A stretch of 64,000 nucleotides of DNA from a virus. Both the position numbers and the translations under genes were made by a program. The stretch spans positions 1-64,000 of IMG/VR virus record IMGVR_UViG_3300022928_001147; one strand, given 5' to 3'. Positions 20,455 through 44,551 of this stretch are shown one piece after another (within the stretch, counting starts at the first letter, position 1; each line of letters opens with the position of its first letter). The notes beneath the pieces are model-generated. The model did no database searches and was not told where the DNA came from. It saw only the letters and a list, made by a program, of their open reading frames with translations.

Positions 20455-21011
20455 ATATCCTTATTTGCACTTAGTTGAAATGCTGTTCTAACTCCTGTAA
20501 CATTTTCAACGCCGTGTAGTATAAGTGTATTTAATGCTACCCACGTATTAGTAGGAAACTTTATGGTTTCAACTACGTCTAGATTACTAAAATCGTTTGC
20601 ATGAACTTGACGACCTCTTACTAAATCTTTTCCATGTTCTTGGTACCATACTGTTTTAGCATCTTCGCCGCCTGGATCTAACAAGTACATTATAGCAATA
20701 TCTCGTTTAATATCAGTGTGAGGTGCTAGGTACGGTCCACGGTCTCCGTCACAAAATCGAATACCACAATCAAATGCTTCAGGATGAATATTTTCATGGC
20801 ACCAATTTGTAAAATCTTCATTAAGTGCTTGATAGTAATGAAACGTAAATCCTACTTGTTTTCCATCTTTAAGTACAACACGATCTTCGTATTTTTTGTG
20901 CAATCCGTGTAAGTCTACACCCCAAGATTTTTCTTGTATATGTTTGTTTGCTAGATCAAAAAATCTATCTGGTGGTGTTGGTAGGTCTTCTAAAATTTTA
21001 TAAATCCACAT
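20448..21011 (-). CDS. 2-oxoglutarate/Fe(II) oxygenase
   Basis: 187 residues from the ATG at 21011, chosen because GAGG lies 7 bases upstream; the frame stays open to 21044. Iron ligands: H98 and D100 (APHTDIKRD), H166 (LILHGVEN), with R175 (TGVRTAF) as the 2-oxoglutarate partner. The strand DIAIMYLLDPGGEDAKTVW is the typical beta-barrel core. Overlaps both neighbours (7 and 14 bp), so it is translated with a radical SAM enzyme and a second oxygenase: one oxidative operon. Confidence 0.8.
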   Translation of the reverse strand: MWIYKILEDLPTPPDRFFDLANKHIQEKSWGVDLHGLHKKYEDRVVLKDGKQVGFTFHYYQALNEDFTNWCHENIHPEAFDCGIRFCDGDRGPYLAPHTDIKRDIAIMYLLDPGGEDAKTVWYQEHGKDLVRGRQVHANDFSNLDVVETIKFPTNTWVALNTLILHGVENVTGVRTAFQLSANKDIW

Positions 21012-22122
21012 TAATTTTCCTCTTGGGTATTTTGCTGTCTGCACTGCTTACACAACTATTTGTTATACAAGGCATTGGAGAATCAAATAGTTTAAACCCT
21101 GTTTCGATATTGCCAAGAGGAACATCATGACATGAATATGATCGCTTAACGCTGCCGTCCGGCTCTCGTATTATAATACCACTGTATCCAGCATTACAAC
21201 TCCAACCTTTAAAATTGTTAAAGTTGAACGCATTAAATCGTTCCGCTTGATCCATGTACCATTTTTCGCCTTTTGAGTCTTTTAACTCAACTTGCATATG
21301 CCACGGTACGCTAGCATCATTTTTTCCCATAATATCTTTAGGTACTTGAAATGTTGGCTTAGGCCTATCTGCCCACTTACGCTTACTTTCTGTGTACGCA
21401 CGTTGTGGCATACCGTTATGCAAACGTTTTAAATTTTCTTCCGTGTAACCATCAACCACGCGGCTCGCAGTAGGATCTGATTGCGGCTTAAGAGTAACAT
21501 TGATTCCTTGTTCGTGAAAGAACAATGCGTTTTCCCAGTCTCTTTCAAACCAGTCCGGAACCATAACCATATTAATCGTAACTTGTACATCGTGCTCCTG
21601 ACAGAAGATTAACTTGTCTGCAAAGTCTTGCATCTTCTCACGTGTATTTAAATGTTCTGTATGTAGACTTGCTGTAATGCTTGCACGATGGAATGGTTTA
21701 ACTGCTTCTACGTATTCTTCAAACCAACTCATTGATCGACTACAGTTTGATGTCATATGAACACTTGTATAGTTAGTATTGTCAACATCATCAGCAAGAT
21801 GTTTTAGTATGTCCAAGTATCCAGGATGGAAAGTAGGCTCTCCTCCCGACAAGGAGAAGTGGAAAGAGTTGAAGCCGTTGTCTCTGGCTTGACGTTTGAT
21901 TTCATCCACTGTACGCAAGCAGAGCTCGGTAGGACGGTGGTCTTTACGATCGCTTCTCGCATATGGCCAACAGTAGGAGCAACGGTAGTTGCAGAATCTT
22001 CCAAGTAACCACGATACAGTAAAAAGATCGCGATAAAGCAGAGTACGTTGACCCACACTGACAATGTCATCAAAGGGAATCTTAGTAAAATCGTAGTTGC
22101 TCCATTTTAAATCTTCATTCAT
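20998..22122 (-). CDS. Radical SAM enzyme, family with C-terminal GW-C motif (copy 1)
   Basis: 374 residues. Fe4S4 Cys in FCNYRCSYCWP (about residues 44-51), SAM-binding SLSGGEPTFHP, and THTSN-like MTSNCSRSMSW. The C-terminal third has GWSCNAGY, then SCHD, then PCITNSC, suggesting an auxiliary cluster like a SPASM domain. It shares CNYxCSYC, GGEPT-hP and the GWxCNxG block with the genes at 28.1 and 43.7 kb. Transcribed from its own sigma-70 promoter into two oxygenase genes. Substrate unknown. Confidence 0.88.
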   Translation of the reverse strand: MNEDLKWSNYDFTKIPFDDIVSVGQRTLLYRDLFTVSWLLGRFCNYRCSYCWPYARSDRKDHRPTELCLRTVDEIKRQARDNGFNSFHFSLSGGEPTFHPGYLDILKHLADDVDNTNYTSVHMTSNCSRSMSWFEEYVEAVKPFHRASITASLHTEHLNTREKMQDFADKLIFCQEHDVQVTINMVMVPDWFERDWENALFFHEQGINVTLKPQSDPTASRVVDGYTEENLKRLHNGMPQRAYTESKRKWADRPKPTFQVPKDIMGKNDASVPWHMQVELKDSKGEKWYMDQAERFNAFNFNNFKGWSCNAGYSGIIIREPDGSVKRSYSCHDVPLGNIETGFKLFDSPMPCITNSCVSSADSKIPKRKINVDL

Positions 22123-22127
22123 AACTT

Positions 22128-22156
22128 ATAATAACATCATTATTATTAATTGTCAA
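22128..22156 (-). promoter_or_regulatory. Sigma-70-type promoter for the radical SAM/oxygenase operon
   Basis: Minus strand: TTGACA (22156-22151), 17 bp, TATTAT (22133-22128). The -35 contains the TGA stop of the nitroreductase gene. Confidence 0.7.
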
Positions 22157-22818
22157 ATAATAATTCTTCGTTGTCCTATTTTGTCATAAGTGTTGCTAGT
22201 GTTAATTCCATCAGTGTGTAATGTGTGTGTGTCGTACAAGGGATATCCTATTCCTAACATTAACAGCAAATTGTATCTATTTAATTTATGTGCCTTAAGT
22301 ACCTTTTTAGGAAATGCGTCTTCCCAAAAACACTTACAAAAACCAGACTTTAATCCTAAACTATTTGCAGCTATTGCTATTGCCCCTGCAGATAATCCAA
22401 CTTCTAAGGATGTTAGCACTCTATACGAACCTTTAGATAATGCGTTTCCATGATCTCTATAAAATTTAGTACTACTATCTCTATCTTCTTCTCTCATAAA
22501 AAATAAAAATAGTATATTAGAGTTAGTTTGAGGATTTTGCATTCTTCCTTGTTTTATAGCACTGCTGAGACTCTTAGATATTTGAGAAAGTTCATCGTCA
22601 CTATTCCGTGCTGCGTTAGCAAATTGTTGTATAACATCTCTATCTTTAATACATACAATATCAAAACTATTCAAGTTTTGTTTGGTAGGTGTATTATAAC
22701 CAACATCTATGAGCCAATTAATAGTTTCAAGATCTATTTCTTTAGAGAGGTCCCAATTGCGTTGACAACGCTGACTACTATTTACAGCAGATAAAAACTC
22801 ATCCTGATCTAAACTCAT
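22153..22818 (-). CDS. Nitroreductase-family flavoprotein
   Basis: 221 residues. N-terminal QRNWDLSKEIDLETINWLID, then YNTPTKQNLNSFDIV (FMN-contact region), and the second-half motifs EVGLSAGAIAIAANSLGL and LMLGIGYP give the nitroreductase layout. Such enzymes use FMN and NAD(P)H; members of biosynthetic clusters oxidise azolines or reduce ring systems. Good Shine-Dalgarno (AGGAG). It sits at the head of the radical SAM gene set. Confidence 0.8.
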   Translation of the reverse strand: MSLDQDEFLSAVNSSQRCQRNWDLSKEIDLETINWLIDVGYNTPTKQNLNSFDIVCIKDRDVIQQFANAARNSDDELSQISKSLSSAIKQGRMQNPQTNSNILFLFFMREEDRDSSTKFYRDHGNALSKGSYRVLTSLEVGLSAGAIAIAANSLGLKSGFCKCFWEDAFPKKVLKAHKLNRYNLLLMLGIGYPLYDTHTLHTDGINTSNTYDKIGQRRIII

Positions 22819-22828
22819 ATACTATCTC

Positions 22829-23593
22829 CTATTGTGTTTTACAATTAACCATTTTTAAATATATTTCCGCAAATGTAGCATGTGCAGATTTTCCGGGATG
22901 TAATAAGTCCCTTGCAGTTGCGTCGTTTACTACTGTTTTTTCTGTCTCTGTATCATTAAGATCTAGAACATACAATGGAATATTATTACTCTGACATAAA
23001 AATTTAATAGCATCTAAATTTCTAAGTTTATTTATATATGCTTCTTCTCTAGTAAAGAATCCAGATATAATATCTCTATGAGAAAAAACGCTGCTATTAG
23101 CTTTAACTTGAGACCATTGTTTACAGTAATAAAGTTCTCGCCTATCACTAAGGGGAAGCAAAAGGAACACTCTTTTTATATTTGCAAAGTTAATAAATCC
23201 TTTTAATACTCTATAACAAGTTTCGGGGCCGGCGCCTGGCACACCTAAGTTATAAAGTTTATAATCATTTAATTTTTTATTAACCAATGTCGGCCATATA
23301 TCTTTATAATTAACTTCTTCGCCTAATGTATAACTACAGCCTATGTATGCATTACATTCATCACCTTTAACAAAATCTTTATTTGATCTATATCCAAAGT
23401 TATTAAGTTTGTATGTTATACTATCTTCTTGCCAGTCTTTCATCTCGTTAGGTCTAGAAAGTTTGTTTTCATTAAACAGCTCGCGCTGATTTTTAAATAA
23501 AAAGTTAACTTCTTTTTTATAAAATACAGAAGAAACTATTGTATTTTGTCTTAATAAATCGTAGTCAAATGTATGTTCGTTAGGTAATATCAT
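22829..23593 (-). CDS. SGNH-hydrolase-like protein
   Basis: 254 residues. Block I is degenerate: YIGCSYTLGEEV supplies the nucleophile Ser (about residue 87). NLGVPGAGPET supplies the oxyanion Gly, and LLHPGKSAH gives the His near the C-terminus. Members are esterases or O-acetyl transferases/esterases of sugars and lipids. No signal peptide, so cytoplasmic. It overlaps the radical SAM gene downstream by 4 bp and shares its transcript. Confidence 0.75.
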   Translation of the reverse strand: MILPNEHTFDYDLLRQNTIVSSVFYKKEVNFLFKNQRELFNENKLSRPNEMKDWQEDSITYKLNNFGYRSNKDFVKGDECNAYIGCSYTLGEEVNYKDIWPTLVNKKLNDYKLYNLGVPGAGPETCYRVLKGFINFANIKRVFLLLPLSDRRELYYCKQWSQVKANSSVFSHRDIISGFFTREEAYINKLRNLDAIKFLCQSNNIPLYVLDLNDTETEKTVVNDATARDLLHPGKSAHATFAEIYLKMVNCKTQ

Positions 23594-24654
23594 TTTATTT
23601 CCTGCAAATGCGGTATTAGTTCTTTTAATTGTTGATTTCGCATATTATCTAATTCATAAGTGTATTTGTAGAATTTATCTAATAGCAAAGGATCAAATTT
23701 AGTTTGTATTATCTTTGACAATCTACTATTTTTCATAATTTCTAGTACATAGTCTTTGGCAGATTCTGATAATATATTTATTGCTAGAAAACTAGGTCGG
23801 ACAACTAAATTTGTACTCCAGGTGCAGTTGTGTTCATTAGCAAACTCTGTTAATTTATAATACTGGTGTATGTTATAATTTTGCAAAGTAGTGTGTAATA
23901 CAATTTTATTACTAATATGTTTTTTAAAAATGTTTAAATTTTCTACAAAGGTTTCCCAACTAGAGTTTCTTATGTAAGTGTATACTTCTTCAATTCCGTC
24001 AAAACTTAGCACAAGATTAAATTCTTTAAATTTACTAACTTTATTGATCCAACGGGGTATGCGAGTGCCGTTACTTACTACTTCTATTGAAATTTTATTA
24101 GCGTTGGGTAATTCAAGTAATTGCTCTATAAAATATTCTGTGCGAGGCATTATAAAAGGCTCGCCTCCTTTTAATTCTATAAAAAATTCTTTATTGCTAG
24201 CACGAATAAAAGATAATATTTTTTCTATATCTTCTTTTGATAATTCATGCACTGCGGTTCTTGCTGTTTGAAAATGTATACCTTTAGCTGCTAGTATCTT
24301 TGCTTCAGGTATCCAGCTGGTACTGTTTCCAGGTGTACACATTCTACAATTTAGATTGCAGTGATTACCGCAGTTAATATCTAACCTAAATTGATTAGAA
24401 GTTATCCATTCGTCATAACTGTCTCGGCGACTAGTACCGTTAGTTTCTTCGTGTGTTTTGCATAAAGAACAATTAGAATGCCACTGTGTTTGCATAGTAG
24501 TTATAATATCTTTATGTTGTGCTAACTCAAACACATCTTCTAGTCTTTCTAGCTCGCTCACATGAATTAGTTTGTCTGCACTTTGACAACAGATACGAAC
24601 AAACCCTTGCGGGTCTATTTGTATATTTTGTGTAAGTGCTTTACATGATATCAT
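23590..24654 (-). CDS. Radical SAM enzyme, N-terminal CC/CxxC twitch-type (paralogue 1 of 8)
   Basis: 354 residues. Order: N-terminal auxiliary-cluster half with GFVRICCQ (about residues 17-24) and CSLCK (about 62-66), then core CNLNCRMCTPGNSTSW (about 98-113), SAM-binding ELKGGEPF, and SNGTRIP. The C-terminus ends LDNMRNQQLKELIP, the tail that marks this paralogue set. The reaction is not known; SPASM/twitch enzymes typically modify peptides or sugars. Translationally coupled on both sides by ATGA. Confidence 0.85.
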   Translation of the reverse strand: MISCKALTQNIQIDPQGFVRICCQSADKLIHVSELERLEDVFELAQHKDIITTMQTQWHSNCSLCKTHEETNGTSRRDSYDEWITSNQFRLDINCGNHCNLNCRMCTPGNSTSWIPEAKILAAKGIHFQTARTAVHELSKEDIEKILSFIRASNKEFFIELKGGEPFIMPRTEYFIEQLLELPNANKISIEVVSNGTRIPRWINKVSKFKEFNLVLSFDGIEEVYTYIRNSSWETFVENLNIFKKHISNKIVLHTTLQNYNIHQYYKLTEFANEHNCTWSTNLVVRPSFLAINILSESAKDYVLEIMKNSRLSKIIQTKFDPLLLDKFYKYTYELDNMRNQQLKELIPHLQEIK

Positions 24655-25817
24655 TGTTTAAATATAGGAAATGTTGCAATTAAATTTTCATTGCGTGATT
24701 TGTCTAATGCAGTGTGATGCTGCCAAAACTTATCCCATAACTCCTTAGTGTATTCATCTTGTTTTACAAATGCTAGTATACTACTGATGCAACTGTAGTC
24801 ATACTTATCTAACTTATTAACAACTTTATTTTTTAAATCTGTTGGAAGTACACTTGCACTTAGATGTTCTGGATAGCGAACAAATGTAATTTCAGTTTCA
24901 ATGCCCATACTATCAAACCATTCTAATGCTTCAGGTATGTAATATACATTAGTGTTTTGTACTGTAATTTTAGCAACAATACGAATGTTAGGATATTTTT
25001 TAAGTTGTAATATATTGTCTTGTATTTGCTGCCATTTACTACCGCAGCGAATATAATCGTTTTGTTCCTTGTTCCCGTCAAGACTTACTGCAAGTTTTAC
25101 TGCTTTAAATTTACTCCAGTAATCTAATACGTTATATTTTTTAAATTTTAACATGCTTAAATTAGTAGCATAACTTAAAAATATTTCGTCTGCTCTGTCA
25201 ATTACTTTATCTAGAACCATATAATGTTTTTCGTCAAATAACGGCTCGCCACCTGCGAAATTTAATTCTAACACTTCAGTTAGATCAAGCCCTTCTATAA
25301 ATGCATCTTCATAGCCTAAATAAGGTTTTTTAGTAAGACCGAGATTGACTATATGTTCTTGCCAGTCTATAGGTTGCAAGTCACTAATCTTGTCCCATTC
25401 TTTAAACCAACTGGTACTATCATGAACGCTGCACATACGGCAAGCAAAGTTGCACAAGTTGCTTAGTTTAAGTTCAAGCCATTTTACTCCTGTTGACAAA
25501 CTGCCGTCTGGCGACATTATAGAAACTGCATGCTCATATTCGTCGAGCATTTTCTTACTTCGTTTGTTAAGATATTTTTGTCTTAAACTATCTACCCCTG
25601 CATCTTCGTCTTTATAACATACTTCACAATGCTTATTTCTGATGCCGTTAACCATATCGAGCCGTACTTGTTTTATAGTATCACAATTCCAAGCCTCTGT
25701 TAATGACATAGAGTTAGTATTTCCGATTCTAGGAAGACTACGACAACACAGTTTTATACTGCCGTCAGTCTTAGTACTTTGATGTACAAACGGTGCAGGA
25801 CAGATAGTTTTACTCAT
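24651..25817 (-). CDS. Radical SAM enzyme, twitch-type (paralogue 2 of 8)
   Basis: 388 residues. N-terminal CPAPFVHQSTKTDGS followed by LCCRS, then CEVCYKDED, core CNFACRMCSVHDSTSW, and NFAGGEPLFD. The tail has LDKSRNENLIATFP. Tail and core match the neighbour at 23.6 kb, so these are tandem paralogues from duplication, diverged enough to have different substrates. ATGA at both borders. Confidence 0.85.
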   Translation of the reverse strand: MSKTICPAPFVHQSTKTDGSIKLCCRSLPRIGNTNSMSLTEAWNCDTIKQVRLDMVNGIRNKHCEVCYKDEDAGVDSLRQKYLNKRSKKMLDEYEHAVSIMSPDGSLSTGVKWLELKLSNLCNFACRMCSVHDSTSWFKEWDKISDLQPIDWQEHIVNLGLTKKPYLGYEDAFIEGLDLTEVLELNFAGGEPLFDEKHYMVLDKVIDRADEIFLSYATNLSMLKFKKYNVLDYWSKFKAVKLAVSLDGNKEQNDYIRCGSKWQQIQDNILQLKKYPNIRIVAKITVQNTNVYYIPEALEWFDSMGIETEITFVRYPEHLSASVLPTDLKNKVVNKLDKYDYSCISSILAFVKQDEYTKELWDKFWQHHTALDKSRNENLIATFPIFKQ

Positions 25818-26410
25818 GTGTTCTCCATATACAATTGCTTGTTTTTAGGACGCAAAGGATCATTCTCGTTCCATCTATCACTTACTCGTAATTTAAATGT
25901 TATTCCATAAGTTTTAGCTAATGCTTGTGCTGCTTCTATTTGATGTTCATTAAAACTAAAAGGTATAAATTGCCAAACAATATCTTTGCCTAATATTGCA
26001 CCTAATTTCATTGCTGCCATACTGCTATCAAAGTCTATATTTTTTCTATACATATGTGCAGTATTTTTCAGGCCATCTACGCCAAATACAACTTTACCAT
26101 GTGTATAACTATTATAAAATTCTTTCCACCAGTCTAATTTTTTACCACTTCCATTAGTTGCCATAATAAAAAATACATTTTGTGTGTCAAAGAATTTTAT
26201 TATATCAATCAACTTTGGATGATATATCGGATCTCCTAGATTGCCGCTTAACAATACTTTTTTATAATTACCAGACTGAATAACTGTTTTGATAACATCA
26301 ACAGGTAAATCAGTTATTTGTATATTGCCTTTAAGATCTGTGCGCGGACACTTAGGACATTCTAACAAACATCTACGTGTTAATTCAAAATGCACTTTTT
26401 CACTATACAT
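25814..26410 (-). CDS. Radical SAM core enzyme lacking its SPASM half
   Basis: 198 residues from ATG 26410 (a TTG at 26419 is possible). Core CLLECPKCPRTD near the N-terminus, LSGNLGDPIYHP in place of GGEP (the SPASM-type variant), ATNGS, and VVFGVDGLKNT. Full-length relatives at 39.1 and 40.1 kb are about 350 residues and end in a SPASM-like Cys domain; this one stops at about residue 198. That domain lies in the gene just before it (26403-26699), so the two may form a two-protein enzyme. Overlap 8 bp. Confidence 0.8.
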   Translation of the reverse strand: MYSEKVHFELTRRCLLECPKCPRTDLKGNIQITDLPVDVIKTVIQSGNYKKVLLSGNLGDPIYHPKLIDIIKFFDTQNVFFIMATNGSGKKLDWWKEFYNSYTHGKVVFGVDGLKNTAHMYRKNIDFDSSMAAMKLGAILGKDIVWQFIPFSFNEHQIEAAQALAKTYGITFKLRVSDRWNENDPLRPKNKQLYMENT

Positions 26411-26699
26411 CTTCGACAACCTTTGTTAACGGATTCTTTAAATTATCTGCAATTGCTCCGCAATGTGTTTTACAAGTAGGTCCAGCAGATTCAGGATTAG
26501 CTATTAAATTGTCTATCCAGTTTTTTAAATGTACATTAACAATTTCATCATAGGGCGTTTTTGTTATATCAAATTTATCACATTCAAACTGTTGATATTC
26601 GTTACGCTCAGGCCTATCACTGAGAAAACAACAAGGACGCACATGCCCTGTTGCAGTAATAAACTGATCTTTCCCTCTTGCACATTTAGGATAAATCAT
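26403..26699 (-). CDS. Stand-alone SPASM-like domain protein
   Basis: 98 residues. Cys pattern: YPKCARGKD, VRPCCFLSD, then FECDKF and PTCKTHCG. This matches the C-terminal SPASM domain of the radical SAM proteins at 39.1 kb (ECFSRE...WPCCF...CKDRLLRCSQTC) and 40.1 kb. There is no CxxxCxxC core. It precedes the core gene in the operon, reversing the usual core-then-SPASM order. Function inferred: supplies auxiliary clusters in trans. Confidence 0.75.
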   Translation of the reverse strand: MIYPKCARGKDQFITATGHVRPCCFLSDRPERNEYQQFECDKFDITKTPYDEIVNVHLKNWIDNLIANPESAGPTCKTHCGAIADNLKNPLTKVVEDV

Positions 26700-27322
26700 T
26701 GTTTCTCCAATATAAAAAACAAATTTTCAGGATATTCAGTAAGTTTGAAATTATAATTTTTAGCAAATTCTTTCACAGCAATTTCAAGTTCGGGCCAATC
26801 CTTGTTTTTATAGTCGTCGCCACATATAACTTTCGTATCTTTAAAATATTCTAAAACTTTTTTTGTGTGTTCGTAGGTGTGTTCCGAATCGAGATATATA
26901 GCATCATATGTCGAACAATACTTTTTATAAATGTACTGGTGTGTAGACATCGACGTAACATTAGATAACAATTTATATTTAGGATGATGCTCCATTACAA
27001 AATTCCAGACTTCTTTATGAGACATATTTTTTAACATATTAACTATGTTCGACCAGATATCCAAATTTTTGCCAAATTTGGGCATTCTATCAGAACGAAC
27101 AAAATCAGGAATTTCTGATGCATCAACATTAAAGGAATCTAACACGTCGTATGTGGTATCGTCAGGCAAAACGTCTAACCACGCCCAAGTACTCCTTCCA
27201 AAAAGCACACCAATTTCTAAAAACTTTGCATTTTTAGGTAGTAGTTTTGCAACTTCTGCGTATCGCTGATGCTGATATATACTTGTAAATCCAGGGACTT
27301 GTCTTGCTTGAATTATTTCCAT
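26696..27322 (-). CDS. Class I SAM methyltransferase-like protein (copy A)
   Basis: 208 residues. Motif I is AKFLEIGVLFGRSTWAW; later YDAIYLDSEHTYEHTKK and KVICGDDYKN are the acidic post-motifs of the methyltransferase-24 style family. Substrate unknown. A near-paralogue lies 113 bp upstream at 27.4-28.1 kb, and the 3' ends of the two genes are very alike at DNA level, a recent tandem duplication. Start ATG lies in the end of a 41-codon mini-ORF. Confidence 0.75.
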   Translation of the reverse strand: MEIIQARQVPGFTSIYQHQRYAEVAKLLPKNAKFLEIGVLFGRSTWAWLDVLPDDTTYDVLDSFNVDASEIPDFVRSDRMPKFGKNLDIWSNIVNMLKNMSHKEVWNFVMEHHPKYKLLSNVTSMSTHQYIYKKYCSTYDAIYLDSEHTYEHTKKVLEYFKDTKVICGDDYKNKDWPELEIAVKEFAKNYNFKLTEYPENLFFILEKQ

Positions 27323-27438
27323 TTAGTAGTCCTCACGTCACTATCAGCTCCGCCGCTTAAACGAATTCCTATTCCTTTATGCTGTGCAGCATCTAAAGGA
27401 ATATTAATAGTAGAATTATTATAACGATACACAGTCAT
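27313..27438 (-). pseudogene. 41-residue chimeric mini-ORF: PP-loop start joined to radical SAM end
   Basis: ATG at 27438, overlapping the previous stop, to TAA at 27313-27315. It reads like the N-terminus of a PP-loop protein through GIGIRLSGGADS, then ends DVRTTKWK. That end matches DVRATKWR, the end of the radical SAM gene at 28.1 kb, which also overlaps a methyltransferase start in the same way. The simplest reading is a deletion that fused a PP-loop gene start to the last eight codons of a lost radical SAM copy, keeping the GAGG ribosome site of the next gene. It may still be translated. Confidence 0.7.
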
Positions 27439-28067
27439 TGATTTTCCAATATAAAAAATAAATTTTTACGATGTTCAGTAAGTTTAAAATTATATTTTTT
27501 AGCAAATTCTTTTACAGCTTTTTCTACGCCTGGCCAATCTGGATTACCATAATCGTCCCCACATATAACTTTAGTATTTTTAAAGTGCTCTAGAGTTTGC
27601 ATTACACCGTCATAAGATTGATTAGCATCTATAAATATAGCATCGTAATTAACTCCGTATTCGTCTTGAATATACTGCTGAAGACGCATTGTCAATACAA
27701 ATTTAACTATATGAAACTTAGGATGATGTTGTAATACAAAATTCCAAACTTCTCTATGAGACATCGTTTTTAATAAATTAGCTATACCTTCCCAGCAATC
27801 TAAATGATTTCCAGGAGTTGACGGTTTTCTACCAGCATTTTTATTAAATTCTGGTATATCTTCTGGTCCAATATCAAATTTGTCCAATGCATCATAGTGT
27901 GCATCTCCAGGCAATGCATCTAACCACGCCCAAGAGCTCCTACCAAGGGAAACTCCTATTTCTAAAAATCTAGGTTTCTCAGGTAATAAGTCAACTACAT
28001 CTTTATATAATTTGTGTTGATACATGCTAGTAAACCCAGGCACATATCGTGCTAAAGTTATCTCCAT
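27435..28067 (-). CDS. Class I SAM methyltransferase-like protein (copy B)
   Basis: 210 residues. Same architecture as copy A: PRFLEIGVSLGRSSWAW, YDAIFIDANQSYDG and KVICGDDYGN. Start ATG inside the end of the radical SAM gene upstream (10 bp overlap); stop shares ATGA with the chimeric mini-ORF. The N-terminal VPGFTSMYQHK-Y is common to both copies. Different acidic and linker residues suggest related but not identical substrates. Confidence 0.75.
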   Translation of the reverse strand: MEITLARYVPGFTSMYQHKLYKDVVDLLPEKPRFLEIGVSLGRSSWAWLDALPGDAHYDALDKFDIGPEDIPEFNKNAGRKPSTPGNHLDCWEGIANLLKTMSHREVWNFVLQHHPKFHIVKFVLTMRLQQYIQDEYGVNYDAIFIDANQSYDGVMQTLEHFKNTKVICGDDYGNPDWPGVEKAVKEFAKKYNFKLTEHRKNLFFILENQ

Positions 28068-30500: not shown

Positions 30501-30585
30501 ATTTTTTAAACCTTTTATTTAAATTTAGTAAGTTGGTTTTTCTAATGTTATCTACTGTATTGTAACATAATGGCGGTTTATTCAT
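30493..30585 (-). pseudogene. 30-residue mini-ORF: isolated tail of a twitch-type radical SAM gene
   Basis: ATG at 30585 overlaps the stop of the SGNH gene; TGA at 30493-30495 overlaps the next start. The product ends VDNIRKTNLLNLNKRFKKYV, matching the tail LDAVRQTNLVDIDERFKDYV at the end of the gene at 35.9 kb. No core, SAM or cluster motif is left. Either a relic of a deleted gene whose 3' end was kept for translation coupling, or a stand-alone tail peptide. I prefer the relic. Confidence 0.65.
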
Positions 30586-31186: not shown

Positions 31187-31190
31187 AAAT

Positions 31191-31295
31191 TTACTCTTCA
31201 AATAATTCTTTATATTCGGACACTATGTCAAGTATAGTTTGATTTCTATTTTTGTCTTTCGATGGTAATTTTCTATCAGCTATATTATTTTTCAT
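31191..31295 (-). pseudogene. 34-residue mini-ORF: isolated tail of a twitch-type radical SAM gene
   Basis: ATG at 31295 overlaps the PP-loop stop; TAA at 31191-31193. It ends KNRNQTILDIVSEYKELFEE, almost the tail of the gene at 32.0 kb (LRNQNILDIVPEYKGLFNEFL). Its final codons, GAAGAG, look like the ribosome site of the SGNH gene that follows. As at 30.5 kb, only the 3' end of a lost paralogue seems to remain. Confidence 0.65.
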
Positions 31296-37013: not shown

Positions 37014-38187
37014 ACTTGTCGAGTCCCATTTCTTGGAAACTATACTTCCAGTCTATTTTTCTTACAGCATCTAAGTCATCTAAATATTGCATTAATGTTG
37101 TACCGTGCTCTTCCCACAAATCTTTTTCCATCATATGATTAATATAAAAAGGAAAATCTTCGCGGTCTCGCTCTTTAAAGTCATAATTATTAATCTTGTT
37201 TAGTATAACATCTTTTATGTCTTTGGGCAAGTTCTGTGCGCTCATATGTATAGGCCATTCTACATGATTACAGAATAAAAACTTGATATTTGGAAATTCT
37301 TTTCGAATTATGTCATAAGTTTCTACAAGATAGAACATACTTACATTAGAACAAGTCCATTGTACACCTACATCGAAGTTAGGTTTTCCTTTAATAAACT
37401 TATCTATTAATCGTAGCTGTTCAACATACACATCCCACTTAATTGGAAATCTAAAATATTCGCCTGCTCGCTCTAGTGCATCAACGCTTAAACGTAATAC
37501 TACTGATTTAAACTTGCTCAACTGTTCCAATCTGTCTTCTGTAATTAATGTACCATTACTAACATATGCTAAATTTACATCTTTAGCATATTCTGTTTCA
37601 GATAAATCTTTTAAAAATTCATTATGTCGTTTATTAGCAAAACTTTCGCCGCCAAGAAAATTATAGCGTTTTGTTTGATGCCATGTATTCCGTAAATGGT
37701 TCCAAAAGCCGTGTTCTTGTTCGATCCATTTATTGTTAATTTGATAATTTTCAGTGTTAGGATACTTGTCTAATAGCGCCTTGTCTTCTTGCCACTTGCT
37801 GCTTGCTCCTGTGCCACAGTGGATACATTTTAGATTACAAATCATACCAGTACGAACATCGATGTGAGGTGGCTCATATGGCACGCTTCCGTCATCTGCT
37901 GTTTGATCTATAAGATGCTTATATTGATCATACCAAAATCCGTTTTCATCCATACGTTTACTAATGCCATCAAGACTTTCTACGTACTTACATCGCTTAC
38001 AATTTTCAGGCCATTCGCCGTTTAAGAAATCTTTTCTAATTTCTTTAAAATATTCGCTGTTCCATTCAGTTGATATGTCACTGTCTTTAAGTTTTGTTGG
38101 AGTTTTTACGCCGCTGTAACCACATACTCGAGGTCGACCAAACGTATTAGTACTAAAATTTATCCAGGGAAGTATGCATGGTTTCAT
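37000..38187 (-). CDS. Radical SAM enzyme, twitch-type (paralogue 8 of 8)
   Basis: 395 residues. N-terminal CILPWINFSTNTFGRPRVCG has one Cys where the others have CC, then CKRCKYVESLDG, core CNLKCIHCGTGASSKW, and NFLGGESFANK. Tail LDAVRKIDWKYSFQE. First gene of the five-gene run. A TATAAATA octamer lies 5 bases before its ATG. Confidence 0.86.
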   Translation of the reverse strand: MKPCILPWINFSTNTFGRPRVCGYSGVKTPTKLKDSDISTEWNSEYFKEIRKDFLNGEWPENCKRCKYVESLDGISKRMDENGFWYDQYKHLIDQTADDGSVPYEPPHIDVRTGMICNLKCIHCGTGASSKWQEDKALLDKYPNTENYQINNKWIEQEHGFWNHLRNTWHQTKRYNFLGGESFANKRHNEFLKDLSETEYAKDVNLAYVSNGTLITEDRLEQLSKFKSVVLRLSVDALERAGEYFRFPIKWDVYVEQLRLIDKFIKGKPNFDVGVQWTCSNVSMFYLVETYDIIRKEFPNIKFLFCNHVEWPIHMSAQNLPKDIKDVILNKINNYDFKERDREDFPFYINHMMEKDLWEEHGTTLMQYLDDLDAVRKIDWKYSFQEMGLDKYDPR

Positions 38188-38192
38188 AATGA

Positions 38193-38200
38193 TATTTATA
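38193..38200 (-). promoter_or_regulatory. Perfect late octamer TATAAATA just before the radical SAM run
   Basis: Exact T4 late octamer on the minus strand, only 5 bases before the ATG at 38187. T4 late start sites lie about 6 bases after the octamer, so the mRNA would begin at or near the ATG (leaderless) or the match is fortuitous. Confidence 0.4.
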
Positions 38201-39081
38201 TGCGTAGTTTATATATAAGTAGTATTATGAGAGACAGTGTAAACAGAGAATATACCGCAGAATGGTTGCAACATGAGCGACCGCAACCAATGTATGATAG
38301 TGATATCAATAAATTTTATGATAATTTTTATCAAAATAATCCAGTACACACTCAAGACTTAGACAATATTTTTAAGTCTAAATTTACGCAATGGATTAGT
38401 GATCACAAATTTAGTAAATTTGAAGGTCTAGATGCGTTTCCTAGACTAGATATTATAAATGGCTGTACACAATTCATTGACGATCTATATCAGCGATGCG
38501 GAACATTACAAATATTCGAAAACGATTACAAATATCACTGGCGATTAAATCCTAATATAGTATATACTACTATTGAGACATTAGATCCGTCTAAAGAATT
38601 GCTTATTTCAATGCCGTTTCCGTATTACGGAGACGAACACCCTGACATGCAAGCAATATTAAATGAATGCCAGCGACTGCATATTCCTGTACACATCGAC
38701 GGTGCATGGATAAGTTGTATCCGCGACATTCATTTTAATTTTGATCATCCGGCTATTAAAACTGTAGGTATTAGTTTGAGTAAAGGTGGCATGGGCGGCA
38801 ATCGTATAGGTGTAAGATATGCTAGAAACACGCCCGAAGGTGCTGTAACTATCATGAATGACTTTAATATGAACAGTCAGGCACTTGTTAGCATGGGAAT
38901 TAAGTTTATCGACGAGATAGGTCCTGAATACTTCTGGAGAAAGTATGAATTAGAGTATAAACAAATATTAGTTGACTTCAATCTAGAAGGTACAAAAGCA
39001 ATACACTTAGCTAAATCTAAAGACGGAAAGCCAATTGGTGTTAGACCGTTGTTACGAGCATTAAAAACTAAAAAATTATAG
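38200..39081 (+). CDS. PLP-dependent aminotransferase-like protein (fold type I)
   Basis: 293 residues. Readable PLP residues: D167 in HIPVHIDGAW (pyridine N contact) and K195 in GISLSKGGMGGNRIGVRY (Schiff-base Lys). NGCTQFIDDLY near residue 88 is the usual phosphate-helix start. It is short for a class I/II aminotransferase (about 390), missing most of the C-terminal domain, so it may be a dedicated cluster enzyme or defective. Start ATG 38200 or 38227. Tail-to-tail with the next gene (6 bp overlap). Confidence 0.65.
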   Translation: MRSLYISSIMRDSVNREYTAEWLQHERPQPMYDSDINKFYDNFYQNNPVHTQDLDNIFKSKFTQWISDHKFSKFEGLDAFPRLDIINGCTQFIDDLYQRCGTLQIFENDYKYHWRLNPNIVYTTIETLDPSKELLISMPFPYYGDEHPDMQAILNECQRLHIPVHIDGAWISCIRDIHFNFDHPAIKTVGISLSKGGMGGNRIGVRYARNTPEGAVTIMNDFNMNSQALVSMGIKFIDEIGPEYFWRKYELEYKQILVDFNLEGTKAIHLAKSKDGKPIGVRPLLRALKTKKL

Positions 39082-40113
39082 TTTCTCTACGGTGTGGTTT
39101 CCTATCGAAATACTATTTTTTGTGCAAGTCTGTGAACAACGTAGTAATCTATCTTTGCATCCCGTACCGTGTATTTCTGTTTGCCAGCTATCATACAAAT
39201 CTTCAGTATAAAATTTAGAATTTAAAATATCGCTAAATGTATAATAGTGTACATTATTCCAATTCTTACCGTAGTTACCTTCAAACCGTTGCTTAGTTTC
39301 ATCTAATGTTCCTAAATGTATCCAACTCGAATTATGTAAAAAACAGCACGGCCAGACGTTGCCGTTAAATCCAATAAAGTACATTGCAGATTCTCGAGAA
39401 AAACATTCTATCTTATTACCTGCACTTTTTTGTTCGGCTTTCACTATTAGTCGTTGCCAAGTTGGTTTCCATTCTGGACGTACAAAACCGTTATCAATTT
39501 CTATTGCACTTACTGACTGTGCCCTATCATGTCTATATTTAAATGACCTAAAATTCATTTCTGCTGCTAATTCTTTTGCTTCTTCGATTTGATGTGCATT
39601 CCAATCGAATACAATATATTGCCACGCTGCATTGCCTCCTGCTGCTATAAAAGCAGCAGCATTTTCCATAATTTTGTTCCAGTTAGATCCCCGACGGTAT
39701 AAATGGTTAGTGTCAGACAATCCGTCTATATTAAATTTTACTTTAGAATGTGGTATATCTTTAGTTAGTTTTGCAACTTCTTTCCAAAATTCAGGAGTAC
39801 GCAAACTTCCATTAGTATGTACATCTGCAGGTATTTCTTTTTTTCGTAAAAATTTTAACATATCTAAGAACTGAGGATGCATAGCAGGATCATCTATTGT
39901 TCCACAAAATTCTATTATTTCTAATTCATTACATACAGGGTCTTCAATTATGTCTTTAAACTTTTCTAAAGTCAAGAATTCGTTTTTAGGAATAAGAGGA
40001 TTACCTTTCATGCTGTACGTTTGTTCGTCAGTTCTTGAACAGCCTGTACAGTTTAAATTACAGTTAGAACTAATTTCAAACTGCAATACTTTTGGTTTTC
40101 TTACATAATGCAT
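39076..40113 (-). CDS. Radical SAM/SPASM enzyme
   Basis: 345 residues. Core CNLNCTGCSRTDEQ near residue 18, EFCGTIDDPAMHP in the SAM-binding place, VKFNIDGL and HLYRRGSNW. C-terminal SPASM: IECFSRE, VWPCCFLHN, GCKDRLLRCSQTC. No N-terminal CC motif, so it belongs to a different family from the twitch paralogues. Adjoins a sister gene by a TAATG overlap. Likely acts on a peptide or carbohydrate. Confidence 0.87.
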   Translation of the reverse strand: MHYVRKPKVLQFEISSNCNLNCTGCSRTDEQTYSMKGNPLIPKNEFLTLEKFKDIIEDPVCNELEIIEFCGTIDDPAMHPQFLDMLKFLRKKEIPADVHTNGSLRTPEFWKEVAKLTKDIPHSKVKFNIDGLSDTNHLYRRGSNWNKIMENAAAFIAAGGNAAWQYIVFDWNAHQIEEAKELAAEMNFRSFKYRHDRAQSVSAIEIDNGFVRPEWKPTWQRLIVKAEQKSAGNKIECFSRESAMYFIGFNGNVWPCCFLHNSSWIHLGTLDETKQRFEGNYGKNWNNVHYYTFSDILNSKFYTEDLYDSWQTEIHGTGCKDRLLRCSQTCTKNSISIGNHTVEKL

Positions 40114-41177
40114 TATTTAAATTGCTCCGCAAACGGATCAAACTCAGCGCCGCATTTCATAGCACAGACTTTTAGTTTGCCATCACTGCAACTTGGTTTA
40201 TTCCAACTGTCTTGTATCCTATCAAACACACCTGTAGCAAATACTTGTTCAAGACCGTTACGTGCATCGAGTGCTTCTTTGTCAATAAAGTTCCAAATCT
40301 GTTCTACTTTAGGATCCTTATGCCACCATTTGTACATGCGGCCAGCAGTCCAACAACATGGCATTGCAAGTCCTTCTGCTGTGATAAACAAACTGTTGTC
40401 TTTTTTAACTTTACAAATGACAGGAGCAGCATCATAATATGCATCCATGCTGCCGTATTTGTTAATAATTACGTCTTGTTTTTTTAATGCAGCATTTTGA
40501 TATTTTTCATCAGGTTTTTTAAGTTCAGCTGTATCATTACCTTTACGATCTTTAGCTTGATGATTATCTTTAGGATCAACTTTAGATGTTACAAAGCGAC
40601 CTGTTTTCTTTTTTATAAACTTTTCGCAGCCCCATTCAGTAGCAAGGGCTTCTGCTTCTTCTACTTGATGCTGATTGTGTTCAAATATTAAAAAGTCCCA
40701 ACGTGCTCTACCGCCAGCATCGATAAACGCTCGCATATTGCGTTCTACGTTGTCCCAATTAACACCTTGGCGATAGATGTGATTAGTATCCCTGAGGCCG
40801 TCAACGCTGAAAATAACAGCACCCATTCTACCAAAAGTAGCAGCCAATTCTCTCCACCATGTTTCATTTTTTGCTCCTGCATTTGTATTCATCGAGAGCC
40901 ACATGTTAGGATTGTGTTCTCTAAAATATTTGAATATTTCAAGCGTATCACGAGCAACAATAGGATCACCTAAGTTACCGCACATATACATAGTATTAAG
41001 TTGTTGTATAAACTCAGGAAGAAATATCTTTTTACAATCTTCTAGTGTAAGTTCATCTAAATTAATATGTGGATTTAATCCTTCTCCGTTCATATTACGA
41101 TCGCACATAGGACAACTAGCCTGACAATTTTGTGTAACTTCTAAGTGAATTGATCTTATGTCTTCGTAGTTATACAT
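40113..41177 (-). CDS. Radical SAM/SPASM enzyme
   Basis: 354 residues. Core CQASCPMCDRNMNGEG, CGNLGDPIVARD, IFSVDGLRDTNHIYRQ, and SPASM-like C-terminus VICKVKKD, AMPCCWTAG, KPSCSDGKLKVCAMKCGAEF. Sister of the next gene, from duplication. Late-type promoter 37 bases upstream of the ATG. Confidence 0.87.
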   Translation of the reverse strand: MYNYEDIRSIHLEVTQNCQASCPMCDRNMNGEGLNPHINLDELTLEDCKKIFLPEFIQQLNTMYMCGNLGDPIVARDTLEIFKYFREHNPNMWLSMNTNAGAKNETWWRELAATFGRMGAVIFSVDGLRDTNHIYRQGVNWDNVERNMRAFIDAGGRARWDFLIFEHNQHQVEEAEALATEWGCEKFIKKKTGRFVTSKVDPKDNHQAKDRKGNDTAELKKPDEKYQNAALKKQDVIINKYGSMDAYYDAAPVICKVKKDNSLFITAEGLAMPCCWTAGRMYKWWHKDPKVEQIWNFIDKEALDARNGLEQVFATGVFDRIQDSWNKPSCSDGKLKVCAMKCGAEFDPFAEQFK

Positions 41178-41221: not shown

Positions 41222-41247
41222 GAAAACAAGTAGGATTTCAATTCATT

Positions 41248-41568
41248 ATGAATATATACACAATTTATGCTGACATAGTCGAAGGTAGTGATCCGAAGAC
41301 TTTTGTGTTGAACATGAAAACGTTTTTAGATGCATTGCCTACTCTACAAGCATACAGAATTACTAGAATGAAACTAGGGTTCCGTAGTATGGACTTACCT
41401 GAATTTAGAATTGATATGGAATTTTTAAATATGCAGGATCTAGACGATGCAATGACACATGTAATACGCAACGACAATGACATAGAAACCCATCATGTAG
41501 CATTTAACAGTATGGTAGATATGGAAACTATTCAACATTTTTTATATAGGGATTATCCAGATGAGTAA
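41248..41568 (+). CDS. DUF6614-like small protein
   Basis: 106 residues of alternating strands and helices: IYTIYADIVEG, YRITRMKLGFRSMDLPEFRI, and VAFNSMVDMETIQHFLYRDYPD. This resembles the DUF6614 family (dimeric alpha-beta barrel-like) by memory. It overlaps the amidinotransferase start by 8 bp, so the two act together. Catalytic residues not evident. Confidence 0.65.
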   Translation: MNIYTIYADIVEGSDPKTFVLNMKTFLDALPTLQAYRITRMKLGFRSMDLPEFRIDMEFLNMQDLDDAMTHVIRNDNDIETHHVAFNSMVDMETIQHFLYRDYPDE

Positions 41569-42769
41569 AGTTAACAGTTGGGACGAGTTTCAACCTTTAC
41601 AAGAATTATTAGTAGGTAGCGTATACGACAGTTCATTCTTTGACGAGGTTAAAAATGTTAGAGCACGAGATGCTCTTAAAAAAATTATCGACGACACGCA
41701 AGAAGATATTGATAACTTTATCGAAACTATGCACAGTCATAACATAAAAACTTATCAAGCAAGTCCTAAAGAATTGGGATATAAAGATAGTATTATGGAC
41801 TATGTTAACGAAGATGGAGAATTAGGGTACAAAAGAAACGTCGGTGATAGCAGTGAAGAAAAAGATGGATTTTGGAAAACTGGTGTGACACCTAGTTTAA
41901 TTCCAAATCCTCCATTGCAGCCACGCGATGATGCAATCGTAATGGGCAATAAGTTAGTAGTAACAGATCCGTATACCTTTGCTACTAAAAAACTTATACC
42001 TAAATATATTGAGTGGTTTGGTGAAGAAAGTTTAGACTTGTCAATTGCAAATCAACAATATTCGTTTAAGCGCAGTGATAAAAATATGCGCAATCTATTG
42101 TTAAGAAATAATATAGAGCCTACAGCAGAAAATATTTTAAAATACCAAAGCGAGCAAGACTGCCAATTAGGGTCCTTTTGCAGTCCAAACTTAACAAGAA
42201 TAGGCAAAACTTGTTTAGTTGATACTTGGCAGGTACCAGGAGTCATTGACGAATTTTTATCAATCGAACATCCAGAATTTAATTATAAACCTATTTCAAT
42301 TGGTGGCCATAATGATGCAGTGTTCAGTGTTATTAAACCTGGATTAGTTGTAGCAACACAGTATCTCGAACCGTACAAAGACATTTTTAAAGGCTGGGAT
42401 ATTATTTGGTTTGACGATCCGAGATGGGACCATGTTAAAAATTGGCTAAGACTTAAACACAAGAATCAAGGAAAATGGTGGGTGCCAGGAGAGGAAAGCA
42501 ACGACGAGTTTACGCACTTCGTCGAAAGTTTCTTGCCTAATTGGACAGGCATGGTCGAAGAAACAATTTTCGATGTTAACTGTCTTGTAGTAGACGATAA
42601 GCATGTTGTAGTAAACAGCGACAACCCTTACTTGTTAGAAAATTTACGCAAGCACAATATGGAACCTATTGTTTGTCCATTACGTCATAGATTTTTCTGG
42701 GACGGTGGATGGCACTGCTTAACCCTTGACATTAAACGTAAAGGTGGGCAAACTGACTATGGAGTCTGA
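41561..42769 (+). CDS. Amidinotransferase (glycine/inosamine amidinotransferase type)
   Basis: 402 residues, close to GATM/StrB-like length. Active-site pieces in order: QPRDDAIVMGN (Asp), SIGGHNDAVFS (His), and GGWHCLTLDI with C386. These match enzymes that transfer the amidino group of arginine to an amine. In secondary metabolism it makes guanidino groups; in phage the acceptor is unknown. Preceded by the DUF6614-like gene and followed by an overlapping gene, with a late-type promoter upstream. Confidence 0.87.
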   Translation: MSKVNSWDEFQPLQELLVGSVYDSSFFDEVKNVRARDALKKIIDDTQEDIDNFIETMHSHNIKTYQASPKELGYKDSIMDYVNEDGELGYKRNVGDSSEEKDGFWKTGVTPSLIPNPPLQPRDDAIVMGNKLVVTDPYTFATKKLIPKYIEWFGEESLDLSIANQQYSFKRSDKNMRNLLLRNNIEPTAENILKYQSEQDCQLGSFCSPNLTRIGKTCLVDTWQVPGVIDEFLSIEHPEFNYKPISIGGHNDAVFSVIKPGLVVATQYLEPYKDIFKGWDIIWFDDPRWDHVKNWLRLKHKNQGKWWVPGEESNDEFTHFVESFLPNWTGMVEETIFDVNCLVVDDKHVVVNSDNPYLLENLRKHNMEPIVCPLRHRFFWDGGWHCLTLDIKRKGGQTDYGV

Positions 42770-43244
42770 TATTTCATCATGGATTATAGATCGACTGTCT
42801 GTTTCTCTTCCTACTTTTAATAACATGCCTGCTTGCCCATTTGCAAAGCAGGCATTATTAAGAAATCGAGTTAAAATTATTCAGCTTGATAATAAACATG
42901 ATTTTGAAGCGCAGTTAGATAAATTAACAACTATGTGGCCTGAAGATATCGAAGTAGTAGTATTAGGCACGGCTCCAAATAACATTTCTTCAGAAGAATT
43001 AACAGAACTCACTGAAACAGCAAATTCTACATTTCTTAAACAAAGAGGGTATCTTGCATTAGAAGATCATCCTCAAGAATTAGAATATGTTGAAGACTTT
43101 TGTGTAAATGAAGGAAACTGGGCTCTTATATTATTGCAAGCAAGCTCTAAGATAACCGAAGCTCGAGAAGTGTTATCGAGTCGCGGATATTACAAGAATT
43201 GGGACGACGACTATTACAAGCAAGTTGTTTTAGAGAGGGCCTAA
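42759..43244 (+). CDS. Conserved hypothetical with PACPFA motif
   Basis: 161 residues from ATG 42759 (a Met at 42726 lies within the amidinotransferase). SWIIDRLSVSLPTFNNMPACPFAKQALL recalls a DUF6875-like family often near oxidative or amidino enzymes. The overlap with the amidinotransferase is 11 bp. Its end overlaps the converging gene by 15 bp. Function unknown. Confidence 0.6.
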   Translation: MESDISSWIIDRLSVSLPTFNNMPACPFAKQALLRNRVKIIQLDNKHDFEAQLDKLTTMWPEDIEVVVLGTAPNNISSEELTELTETANSTFLKQRGYLALEDHPQELEYVEDFCVNEGNWALILLQASSKITEAREVLSSRGYYKNWDDDYYKQVVLERA

Positions 43245-43655
43245 TTCTTCATACCCTTGTATCATTGTCTTATAGTGTGCAACCTCTCCTAAGTACAAGT
43301 ATTCAACTCCCTTACTCTTGTAATATGCACATTCATGTTCTATACTTTTAATACCTAAATATAAATTCGGATTATGATAGGTCCAAGCAAATTGATAGTC
43401 TTCTACATGTTTATCATTGTATATTCCAATCATGTTAAATGCTACTAATTCATTATTATCGTAATAGGCAATAATATCATTATTAAAATATTCTTTGTCG
43501 AAAATAGGCATAACACTCTCAAAGTTTTTATATTGACAGTATTTTTTATAGATGTTATTAAGCTGAACAACATCAATTTCATCTTTGCTTAAAAGTTTTG
43601 CGTTAGGCAAAAGGCTATAAGATGTTTCTTTTAAATTTATTCTACAGTATTTCAT
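43230..43655 (-). CDS. GNAT-fold protein like the C-terminal part of Ate/Bpt aminoacyl-transferases
   Basis: 141 residues. ELVAFNMIGIYND, FAWTYHNPNLYLGIKSIEHECAYYKSKG and EYLYLGEVAHYKTMIQGYEELGPL match the YYYLGYxI--c--M-YKa pattern of arginyl/leucyl-tRNA-protein transferases. The usual N-terminal Cys domain is absent. It may move an amino acid or acyl group from tRNA or CoA to a peptide or sugar. Last gene of its operon; overlaps a radical SAM stop by 4 bp. Confidence 0.6.
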   Translation of the reverse strand: MKYCRINLKETSYSLLPNAKLLSKDEIDVVQLNNIYKKYCQYKNFESVMPIFDKEYFNNDIIAYYDNNELVAFNMIGIYNDKHVEDYQFAWTYHNPNLYLGIKSIEHECAYYKSKGVEYLYLGEVAHYKTMIQGYEELGPL

Positions 43656-44551
43656 TTATTTGTTTTGTAAATTTGAACATCTGTTCCACAAACACAAGAT
43701 GTTTTAGTGCAAATTTCAGGCGCAGTAGGTAATTTATAAGTCGAGTATATATTTCCATATGGTTTTACAATTTTACAAGTTGCTCCGTAAATGTTTCCAT
43801 TTGGTTCAATATTTAAATTGTCTAATCCCATATTACATTTCCATCCAAAATAATTATTTGAACTGTTTATTAAATGTTCGCTTGTTGTTGTTTTTTCTCC
43901 ATCGACAAGGAAATCGTATCTAATAATAGATCTAATTTTAGATCGCGAAAACTTGATTTTAGCAAACTCTAACATTTCCGTAGTATAAGTAGGCAATATG
44001 CCAGTTCCATTGTGCCAGTCAGCTATCAGTTTTATTCTAACATTTATAAGCAATTTAGATTCTAATAATCTATTATAAAACTTTTTAATTTTTTCAAATT
44101 GACTCGGTGGCATCATTAGTACACATGAAATTCTGTACCGTGTATGGAGTTCTTCAAATACTTCTATAAAATGATCTTCGCTTGCAGTTTCTGTATGAAA
44201 ACTAAATCCTAATTCGTCAATAGGAGCATTAAATTTTTTCCAATAGTTTAAAGTACGACTACCGTTAGTAGTAAAAATAATTGCAGTAGGTTGCTTACTT
44301 GAGTTTACAAGATCATCACAAAACTCATGCAGTTTAGGCCATAGTGTAGGTTCGCCGCCCATAATATCAAATATTAACGGACGATATTTTCTAAATTCAT
44401 TAGACAAGTTTAAAAGAGAAGTATAATCTTCTGTCCATCTATACTTTCCGTTGTAATGGTACTCTGTGCAATAACTACAAGAATAATTACAAACTGTAGT
44501 GCAAGTGTAAGTAATACGCTTCCATTGAGGAATTATCTTAAGTTCATTCAT
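43652..44551 (-). CDS. Radical SAM enzyme, GW-C family (copy 3)
   Basis: 299 residues. Core VCNYSCSYCTEYHYNG, DIMGGEPTLWP, TNGSRTLNYW, and C-terminal GWKCNMGLDNLNIEPNG then SCVCGTD. Same layout as the genes at 21.0 and 28.1 kb but shorter. It sits in a glycosyltransferase operon, pointing to glycan or surface modification. Start overlaps the preceding gene by 8 bp. Confidence 0.86.
   Translation of the reverse strand: MNELKIIPQWKRITYTCTTVCNYSCSYCTEYHYNGKYRWTEDYTSLLNLSNEFRKYRPLIFDIMGGEPTLWPKLHEFCDDLVNSSKQPTAIIFTTNGSRTLNYWKKFNAPIDELGFSFHTETASEDHFIEVFEELHTRYRISCVLMMPPSQFEKIKKFYNRLLESKLLINVRIKLIADWHNGTGILPTYTTEMLEFAKIKFSRSKIRSIIRYDFLVDGEKTTTSEHLINSSNNYFGWKCNMGLDNLNIEPNGNIYGATCKIVKPYGNIYSTYKLPTAPEICTKTSCVCGTDVQIYKTNK

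Follow-up and report, generated by a model that had tools for sequence, protein, structure and literature searches.

A phage island of fourteen radical SAM enzymes with a conserved core and a possible role in surface-glycoconjugate tailoring

Why does a marine tailed phage carry fourteen radical S-adenosylmethionine (rSAM) enzymes in a single island? The question is raised by the 64,000 nucleotides analysed here (the window), which are bases 1-64000 of IMGVR_UViG_3300022928_001147, a linear IMG/VR virus record of 81,494 bases; the island lies at 20998-44551. We found that the island has a conserved core, that its rSAM genes form a toolkit of one gene per subfamily uncoupled from phage lineage, and that the core has relatives in Bdellovibrionota; these three points are new. 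Because the core is headed by a predicted glycosyltransferase, the slot lies beside the tail fibres and the bacterial relatives appear in polysaccharide-type settings, we give a probability of about 0.5 to the reading that the island is a modular cassette for tailoring a surface glycoconjugate, situated in a hypervariable host-recognition slot.

A PF04055 search of the whole record gave 15 matches, namely 14 in the island and QueE at 3051. The first-pass annotation had counted fourteen rSAM genes besides queE in families of eight, three and three; PF04055, NF033640 and alignments agree on eight N-twitch, three SPASM-like and three GW-C enzymes. Eight island proteins score 194-420 bits against NF033640, whose curated N-twitch cut-off is 170 bits. 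The twitch enzymes have CxxxCxxC and N-terminal auxiliary-cluster cysteines, and C24, C76, C79, C133, C137 and C140 are invariant in 50 sequences. The GW-C proteins (20998, 28058 and 43652) share an invariant GW.CN region and a C-terminal Cys in the alignment; they reach at most about 40 bits against the viperin, MoaA and STM4011 profiles, whose cut-offs are 180-284. The SPASM-type proteins 39076 and 40113 have C-terminal Cys, and an NCBIfam search listed no SPASM-domain match for them. The third, 25814, is an rSAM core only, and its SPASM-like domain is in a separate upstream open reading frame (ORF), 26403 (PF13186, 19.9 bits against a cut-off of 21.5). This split, reversed-order pair (25814-26699) is also found in locus L080, and L049 has a fused form of 339 amino acids. 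Mis-translation of the cores is contradicted by the finding that 14/14 genes have an open frame with CxxxCxxC. The proposed translational coupling is borne out by overlaps in 25 of the 34 neighbouring gene pairs; the coding fraction of 19741-49901 is 98.7%. A chimera of phage and bacterial DNA, suspected at 12.2 and 49.9 kb, was ruled out because two independent assemblies span the junctions at identities of at least 99.94%: contig 3300022922_000794 covers window positions 3970-50937 (99.94-100% identity) unbroken over both points, and contig 3300020051_000017 covers 28948-64000 (99.94-100%) unbroken over 49.9 kb.

Clustering of 744 phage rSAMs gave 26 subfamilies with at least five members, and core counts were taken over 66 full-flank loci. 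Subfamily s0 was found in 57/66 loci, s1 in 54/66 and s2 in 37/66, with s0 and s1 together in 52/66. The most frequent ordered pairs were c0-c2, c2-c3 and s0-s1, and the recurrent core order was c0-c2-c3-s0-s1. The core features in the window are as follows.

20998-22122, minus strand: core rSAM s2, GW-C type (PF04055, 61.3 bits)
29091-30500, minus strand: core rSAM s1, N-twitch type (NF033640, 419.5 bits)
40113-41177, minus strand: core rSAM s0, SPASM type (PF04055, 36.7 bits)
44544-44768, minus strand: core c3, conserved protein of 74 amino acids, in 32 loci, mostly straight after c2
44755-47364, minus strand: core c0-c2, 869 amino acids, two predicted GT-A-like domains fused to a class I methyltransferase-like domain, with relatives in 44-46 loci

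This core, comprising the GT-A-like glycosyltransferase/methyltransferase, the 74-amino-acid protein, s0, s1 and s2, is conserved above the phages' baseplate genes. In IMG/VR, relatives of s1 turned up at 247 loci; amino acid identity is 83-100% for the best 80 of them, and s2 has 73-89% identity in five other phage contigs. In contig G070, s1 and s2 are 81% and 87% identical to those of the window, whereas the VWA gene is 49.5% and the baseplate wedge 33% identical. Either strong constraint or horizontal spread would account for this conservation.

The rSAM genes are a non-redundant set. More than one member per locus was found in only 22/722 locus-subfamily combinations. In a FastTree phylogeny of 307 twitch enzymes, the nearest relatives of the window paralogues are enzymes of other phages, at 0.34-2.1 substitutions per site, whereas the window paralogues are at least 2.9 substitutions per site from each other. 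An origin of the eight twitch genes by recent amplification of a single local gene was therefore rejected, since none has its nearest relative in the window and multi-member combinations are so few. NF033640 describes a family without an assigned function, and the island members split into many old subfamilies, typically one per island.

The island occupies a fixed slot between a MoxR/VWA module and a fibre/baseplate module in the window phage and in G057, G045, G070 and G062; some of these contigs carry additional rSAM genes outside the slot. The tail-fibre genes from 49958 onward adjoin it. Its content is uncoupled from phage relatedness: G045, whose VWA gene is 79% identical to that of the window, has almost no rSAM subfamilies in common with it (Jaccard 0.04), and more are shared by G062 (0.32), where VWA identity is 51%. 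The relic of a PP-loop gene at 27323-27434 is a record of gene turnover. These features, namely the core/variable structure, the fixed slot, the split SPASM gene and the PP-loop relic, as well as the bacterial counterpart described below, had escaped the first-pass annotation, whose rSAM families and enzyme mix stand.

That annotation had also singled out the rSAM density as the most unusual thing in the window; it is not peculiar to this phage. Among 30 contigs retrieved via an unrelated phage gene (8064), 28 have a PF04055 match over the cut-off, although the contigs are fragments and a lone match may be QueE; by our count 24/30 have at least three matches, with a maximum of 16. Retrieval with the amidinotransferase gave contigs with as many as 22 rSAM matches, the maximum being reached on one of 72 kb, and published phages have 11-12 rSAM genes. 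Thus, fourteen rSAMs are not peculiar to the window phage, and rSAM-rich islands occur in many uncultured aquatic phages. Few relatives are found among cultured phages, and a cultured-phage nucleotide search with the left flank gave no match. Vibrio phage K566, with four twitch genes, is a cultured example. The three rSAM families are all present in 34 of 39 twitch-pattern loci with about 20 kb of flank, a sample that was selected on twitch genes and informs co-occurrence rather than prevalence.

Within the scan made, twitch enzymes of cellular organisms come mainly from Bdellovibrionota, the phylum of predatory bacteria, and from Marinifilaceae. Among 114 sampled Bdellovibrionota genomes, 30 exceed the twitch cut-off, with up to 42 matches in single genomes. 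An rSAM locus is present in Halobacteriovorax as well. Four Bdellovibrionota loci (L221, L222, L223 and L225) have s1 relatives of 59-61% and s2 relatives of 58-68% identity together with c0- and/or c2-like genes, and L223 sits in a 936-kb contig. Other Bdellovibrionota rSAM loci, read by eye, contain DegT-like aminotransferases, glycosyltransferases, SGNH membrane proteins and a Wzm/Wzt-like exporter, so that, judged from gene content, the related rSAMs are in putative polysaccharide-type loci. Matches from marine metagenome-assembled genomes (MAGs) that resemble binned phage contigs were excluded from this evidence. Two short contigs from unrelated marine MAGs, L267 (G098) and L271 (G100), have a near-identical rSAM layout and are probably binned phage DNA. 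At three Bdellovibrionota loci (L286, 1032-1878; L289, 15914-16756; L287, 10739-11539), read by eye or with our own profiles, a PqqD-like gene lies beside one for a short protein with a leader-like N-terminus and an S74-like region, near a twitch rSAM.

Predicted structures bear on what the core may act on. The AlphaFold2 model of the second glycosyltransferase domain (45730-46479) has a pLDDT of 89.9, and its top Foldseek matches are all glycosyltransferases (TarP, RmlT, WrtF and SunS; probability about 0.99). With a near-invariant DGD (DxD motif), the domain is predicted to have a GT-A-like fold. The model of the twitch enzyme 32027 (s3; pLDDT 95.9) matches CteB, SuiB, SkfB and anSME, with BlsE in between (TM-score about 0.33, identity about 12-19%). 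The four SPASM maturases CteB, SuiB, SkfB and anSME modify proteins or peptides and are an argument for the chief rival explanation, that the rSAMs install crosslinks or epimerised or hydroxylated residues in the adjacent tail-fibre proteins, diversifying or protecting the receptor-binding tips. The fibre genes adjoining the slot, the Asp/Asn-hydroxylase-like genes that recur in relatives' islands and the Bdellovibrionota twitch enzymes beside PqqD-like and short S74 fibre-chaperone-like proteins are in line with it, as is the use of S74 fibres by Bdellovibrio in prey recognition (PMC10769870). However, rSAM barrels resemble one another, and the order of structural matches is a poor guide to substrate. 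The auxiliary-cluster domain of the island twitch enzymes, unlike that of these maturases, is N-terminal. A glycosyltransferase-like gene heads the core. Unlike the setting of CteB, SuiB, SkfB and anSME, the phage islands searched yielded no precursor or RiPP recognition element (RRE) gene (RiPP, ribosomally synthesised and post-translationally modified peptide); in the island loci, searched with a narrow profile, no PqqD-like gene was significant and no S74-like gene was found. We regard modification of fibre proteins as possible and rather unlikely.

The remaining features of the slot are listed below.

19741-21044, minus strand: two putative 2-oxoglutarate/Fe oxygenases, without Pfam match
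22153-22818, minus strand: nitroreductase-family protein (PF00881, 36.9 bits)
22829-23593, minus strand: SGNH-hydrolase-like protein, by motif only; cluster c21, 17 loci
23590-24654, minus strand: rSAM, N-twitch (NF033640, 193.7 bits)
24651-25817, minus strand: rSAM, N-twitch (NF033640, 339 bits)
25814-26699, minus strand: SPASM-type rSAM with reversed domains, SPASM-like ORF 26403-26699 upstream of core ORF 25814-26419
26696-27322 and 27435-28067, minus strand: two paralogous methyltransferase genes (PF13578 for 26696)
27323-27434: relic of a PP-loop gene (SGGADS), between the two methyltransferase paralogues
28058-29104, minus strand: rSAM, GW-C, s65 (PF04055, 39.2 bits)
30578-31201, minus strand: SGNH/GDSL hydrolase-like (PF00657, 23.4 bits, slightly below cut-off)
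31285-32067, minus strand: PP-loop ATPase-like (SGGFDS), cluster c7, with an rSAM neighbour in 89%
32027-33334, minus strand: rSAM, N-twitch, s3 (NF033640, 397.5 bits)
33327-34607, minus strand: rSAM, N-twitch, s13 (NF033640, 315 bits)
34604-35878, minus strand: rSAM, N-twitch, s18 (NF033640, 299.6 bits)
35871-37013, minus strand: rSAM, N-twitch, s17 (NF033640, 232.1 bits)
37000-38187, minus strand: rSAM, N-twitch, s14 (NF033640, 297.5 bits)
38200-39081, plus strand: pyridoxal phosphate (PLP)/aminotransferase-like, cluster c32, with an rSAM neighbour in 92% of cases, without Pfam match
39076-40113, minus strand: rSAM, SPASM type, s8 (PF04055, 52.4 bits)
41248-43244, plus strand: block of a DUF6614 protein (41248), an amidinotransferase-like protein (41561-42769) and a conserved partner (42726-43244)
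43230-43655, minus strand: GNAT/ATE_C-like protein (PF04377, E 9e-5, below cut-off)
43652-44551, minus strand: rSAM, GW-C, s10 (PF04055, 34.1 bits; CNYSCSYC)
47922-49557, minus strand: two GT8-like proteins (c35) at a conserved position in the slot flank on the tail-fibre side, without Pfam match
49923-49951, minus strand: promoter with a perfect sigma-70 consensus (TTGACA-N17-TATAAT), preceding the minus-strand run

The mix of partner enzymes described earlier holds. The nitroreductase and one methyltransferase score above their Pfam cut-offs; for the SGNH, PP-loop and PLP-like proteins and the oxygenases, the assignment comes from motifs, from weak matches or from matches of relatives. The Asp/Asn hydroxylase family PF05118 is matched by clusters of relatives' islands, where a carbamoyltransferase also recurs. 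The block of the DUF6614 protein, the amidinotransferase-like protein and the partner is found among relatives as the ordered adjacency c23-c25-c28. The amidinotransferase-like protein matches HsvA, SxtG and AGAT at its C-terminus only (residues 336-400, E 1.9e-9), including GGWHC. The kinship of this protein to HsvA, SxtG and StrB, together with the relatives' carbamoyltransferase and the PP-loop, PLP-like and SPASM-type genes, resembles the tailoring genes of natural products, and a secondary-metabolite or RiPP-like pathway could produce a small bioactive molecule during infection. However, no small precursor gene was found in the densely coding island, whose sole gap over 100 bp is the PP-loop relic, and no export gene was identified within it; such a pathway is improbable. 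A classical RiPP cluster in the island was rejected, since no precursor gene was found within it and no PqqD partner with the narrow profile; a precursor encoded elsewhere is conceivable.

FolE (GTP cyclohydrolase) and QueE are encoded at 2085-3923, possibly as a 7-deazaguanine pathway. Together with the PP-loop gene, which is distantly QueC-like, and the weak similarity of the GW-C enzymes to viperin, MoaA and QueE, they might point to nucleic-acid or cofactor modification (7-deazaguanine-type DNA modification, tRNA or cofactor maturation). QueE of these phages, however, lies outside the island slot, the island matches are far under equivalog cut-offs, and no DNA-modification transferase was seen, which makes this explanation very unlikely.

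In the surface-glycoconjugate reading, the core (44755, 44544, 40113, 29091 and 20998) would build and modify a glycoconjugate. The glycosyltransferase would transfer a sugar onto a cytoplasmic acceptor, either a lipid-linked host glycan or a virion protein, the rSAMs would generate carbon-centred radicals on the acceptor or on a sugar nucleotide, and the tailoring enzymes would complete the group. Exchangeable decorators, each making a different modification, would come from the other rSAMs as well as from the amidino-, methyl-, amino-, PP-loop, SGNH, nitroreductase and oxygenase genes. The product may alter the surface of the infected cell or virion and thereby affect receptor use or exclude competing phages. 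We infer the substrate, chemistry, surface location and benefit of the cassette. Several points weigh against this reading: the nearest solved structures of the twitch enzyme are peptide-modifying SPASM maturases, some Bdellovibrionota twitch enzymes adjoin PqqD-like genes, the Foldseek TM-scores of the glycosyltransferase domain are low (about 0.35), the island shows no evident pathway for nucleotide-sugar synthesis, and the surface glycan itself is something we infer. The more general reading of the first-pass annotation, a biosynthetic or protein/glycan-modification pathway, stands. We also propose, tentatively and at less than even odds, a novel system of large aquatic phages and Bdellovibrionota in whose core three rSAMs cooperate with a GT-A glycosyltransferase and a methyltransferase. 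It would produce surface glycoconjugates or glycoproteins of a new, radical-modified class, and phages would diversify this product by swapping decorating enzymes in one slot, as part of a chemical arms race fought at the cell surface.

The perfect sigma-70 site was observed once against 0.12 expected per window. In relatives, it precedes c56 in 5/8 cases (three of the five being the same phage) and c0 in 7/57. This promoter suggests that the island is transcribed by a host-type RNA polymerase and might hint at early expression. General sigma-70 scans were of little use, with 123 sites in one half where 90 were expected and 92 in the other where 94 were; only the perfect site is informative. 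The T4-type late promoter TATAAATA occurred below chance and was uninformative.

The region to the right of the island encodes fibre and collar proteins, a giant virion protein and, for the baseplate, wedge subunits and a gp5-like hub. The phage is therefore contractile-tailed, with baseplate proteins of T4 type. The giant virion protein of about 4,950 amino acids (57102-63578) continues past the window to about 71951 of the record. On the left, 8064-9347 carries the PHROGs label HNH endonuclease (phrog_1314), which is probably wrong because the protein has VWA (DMSGS) and HEILH motifs and adjoins a MoxR ATPase. Genes for TctB, TctA, a DctP-type binding protein and TctC, i.e. a tripartite transporter, lie at 15807-19684, close to an asparagine-synthase-domain protein (PF00733, 14056-15357). 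In an IMG/VR pattern search, TctA matched only contigs of the same phage; its closest relatives (50%) are Agrobacterium/Cupriavidus plasmid genes, a faint pointer to a host in the Alpha- or Betaproteobacteria.

Phage rSAM clusters were remarked on in 2010 (PMC2853527), in 2017 (PMC5332604) and in 2020 (PMC7029224), without function. No functional study of them was found in our literature search, which took in few subscription journals and had preprints outside its scope. Near the baseplate-spike genes of Campylobacter phage CP220 lie five rSAM genes, together with an amidinotransferase gene and two genes resembling those of NDP-sugar transferases (PMC2853527). CP220/CPt10 (Timms 2010) resemble the island in having an interchangeable rSAM module with A2- and A3-like enzymes, and differ in having no twitch member, five rSAMs rather than fourteen and no c0/c2/c3 core match. 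By analogy, the same syntax in CP220/CPt10 suggests a general strategy. The host recognition clusters of pelagimyophages contain rSAM cassettes and glycosyltransferases (Zaragoza-Solas 2020, PMC7029224) and are likewise hypervariable, beside tail fibres and furnished with GT8-type glycosyltransferases. The likeness lies in hypervariability and fibre/baseplate adjacency. The pelagimyophage clusters are bounded by VrlC and gp14. Here the giant virion protein and baseplate are on the right and MoxR/VWA on the left. The rSAMs are briefly mentioned in that paper, and the core and families are undescribed. TARA_ERS488813_N000010 (Nishimura 2017, PMC5332604), a T4-like phage of 183 kb, has 12 rSAM genes, which the passage on them treats only as Fe-S metabolism, without analysing an island.

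rSAM-rich phage islands have thus been noticed for more than 15 years without a function, and the minimal core now offers a small gene set for assay. The Bdellovibrionota counterpart gives access to related genes outside phages, and the islands are a large untapped store of diverse radical enzymes. If the surface-glycoconjugate reading is true, phages would remodel a surface by oxygen-sensitive radical chemistry.

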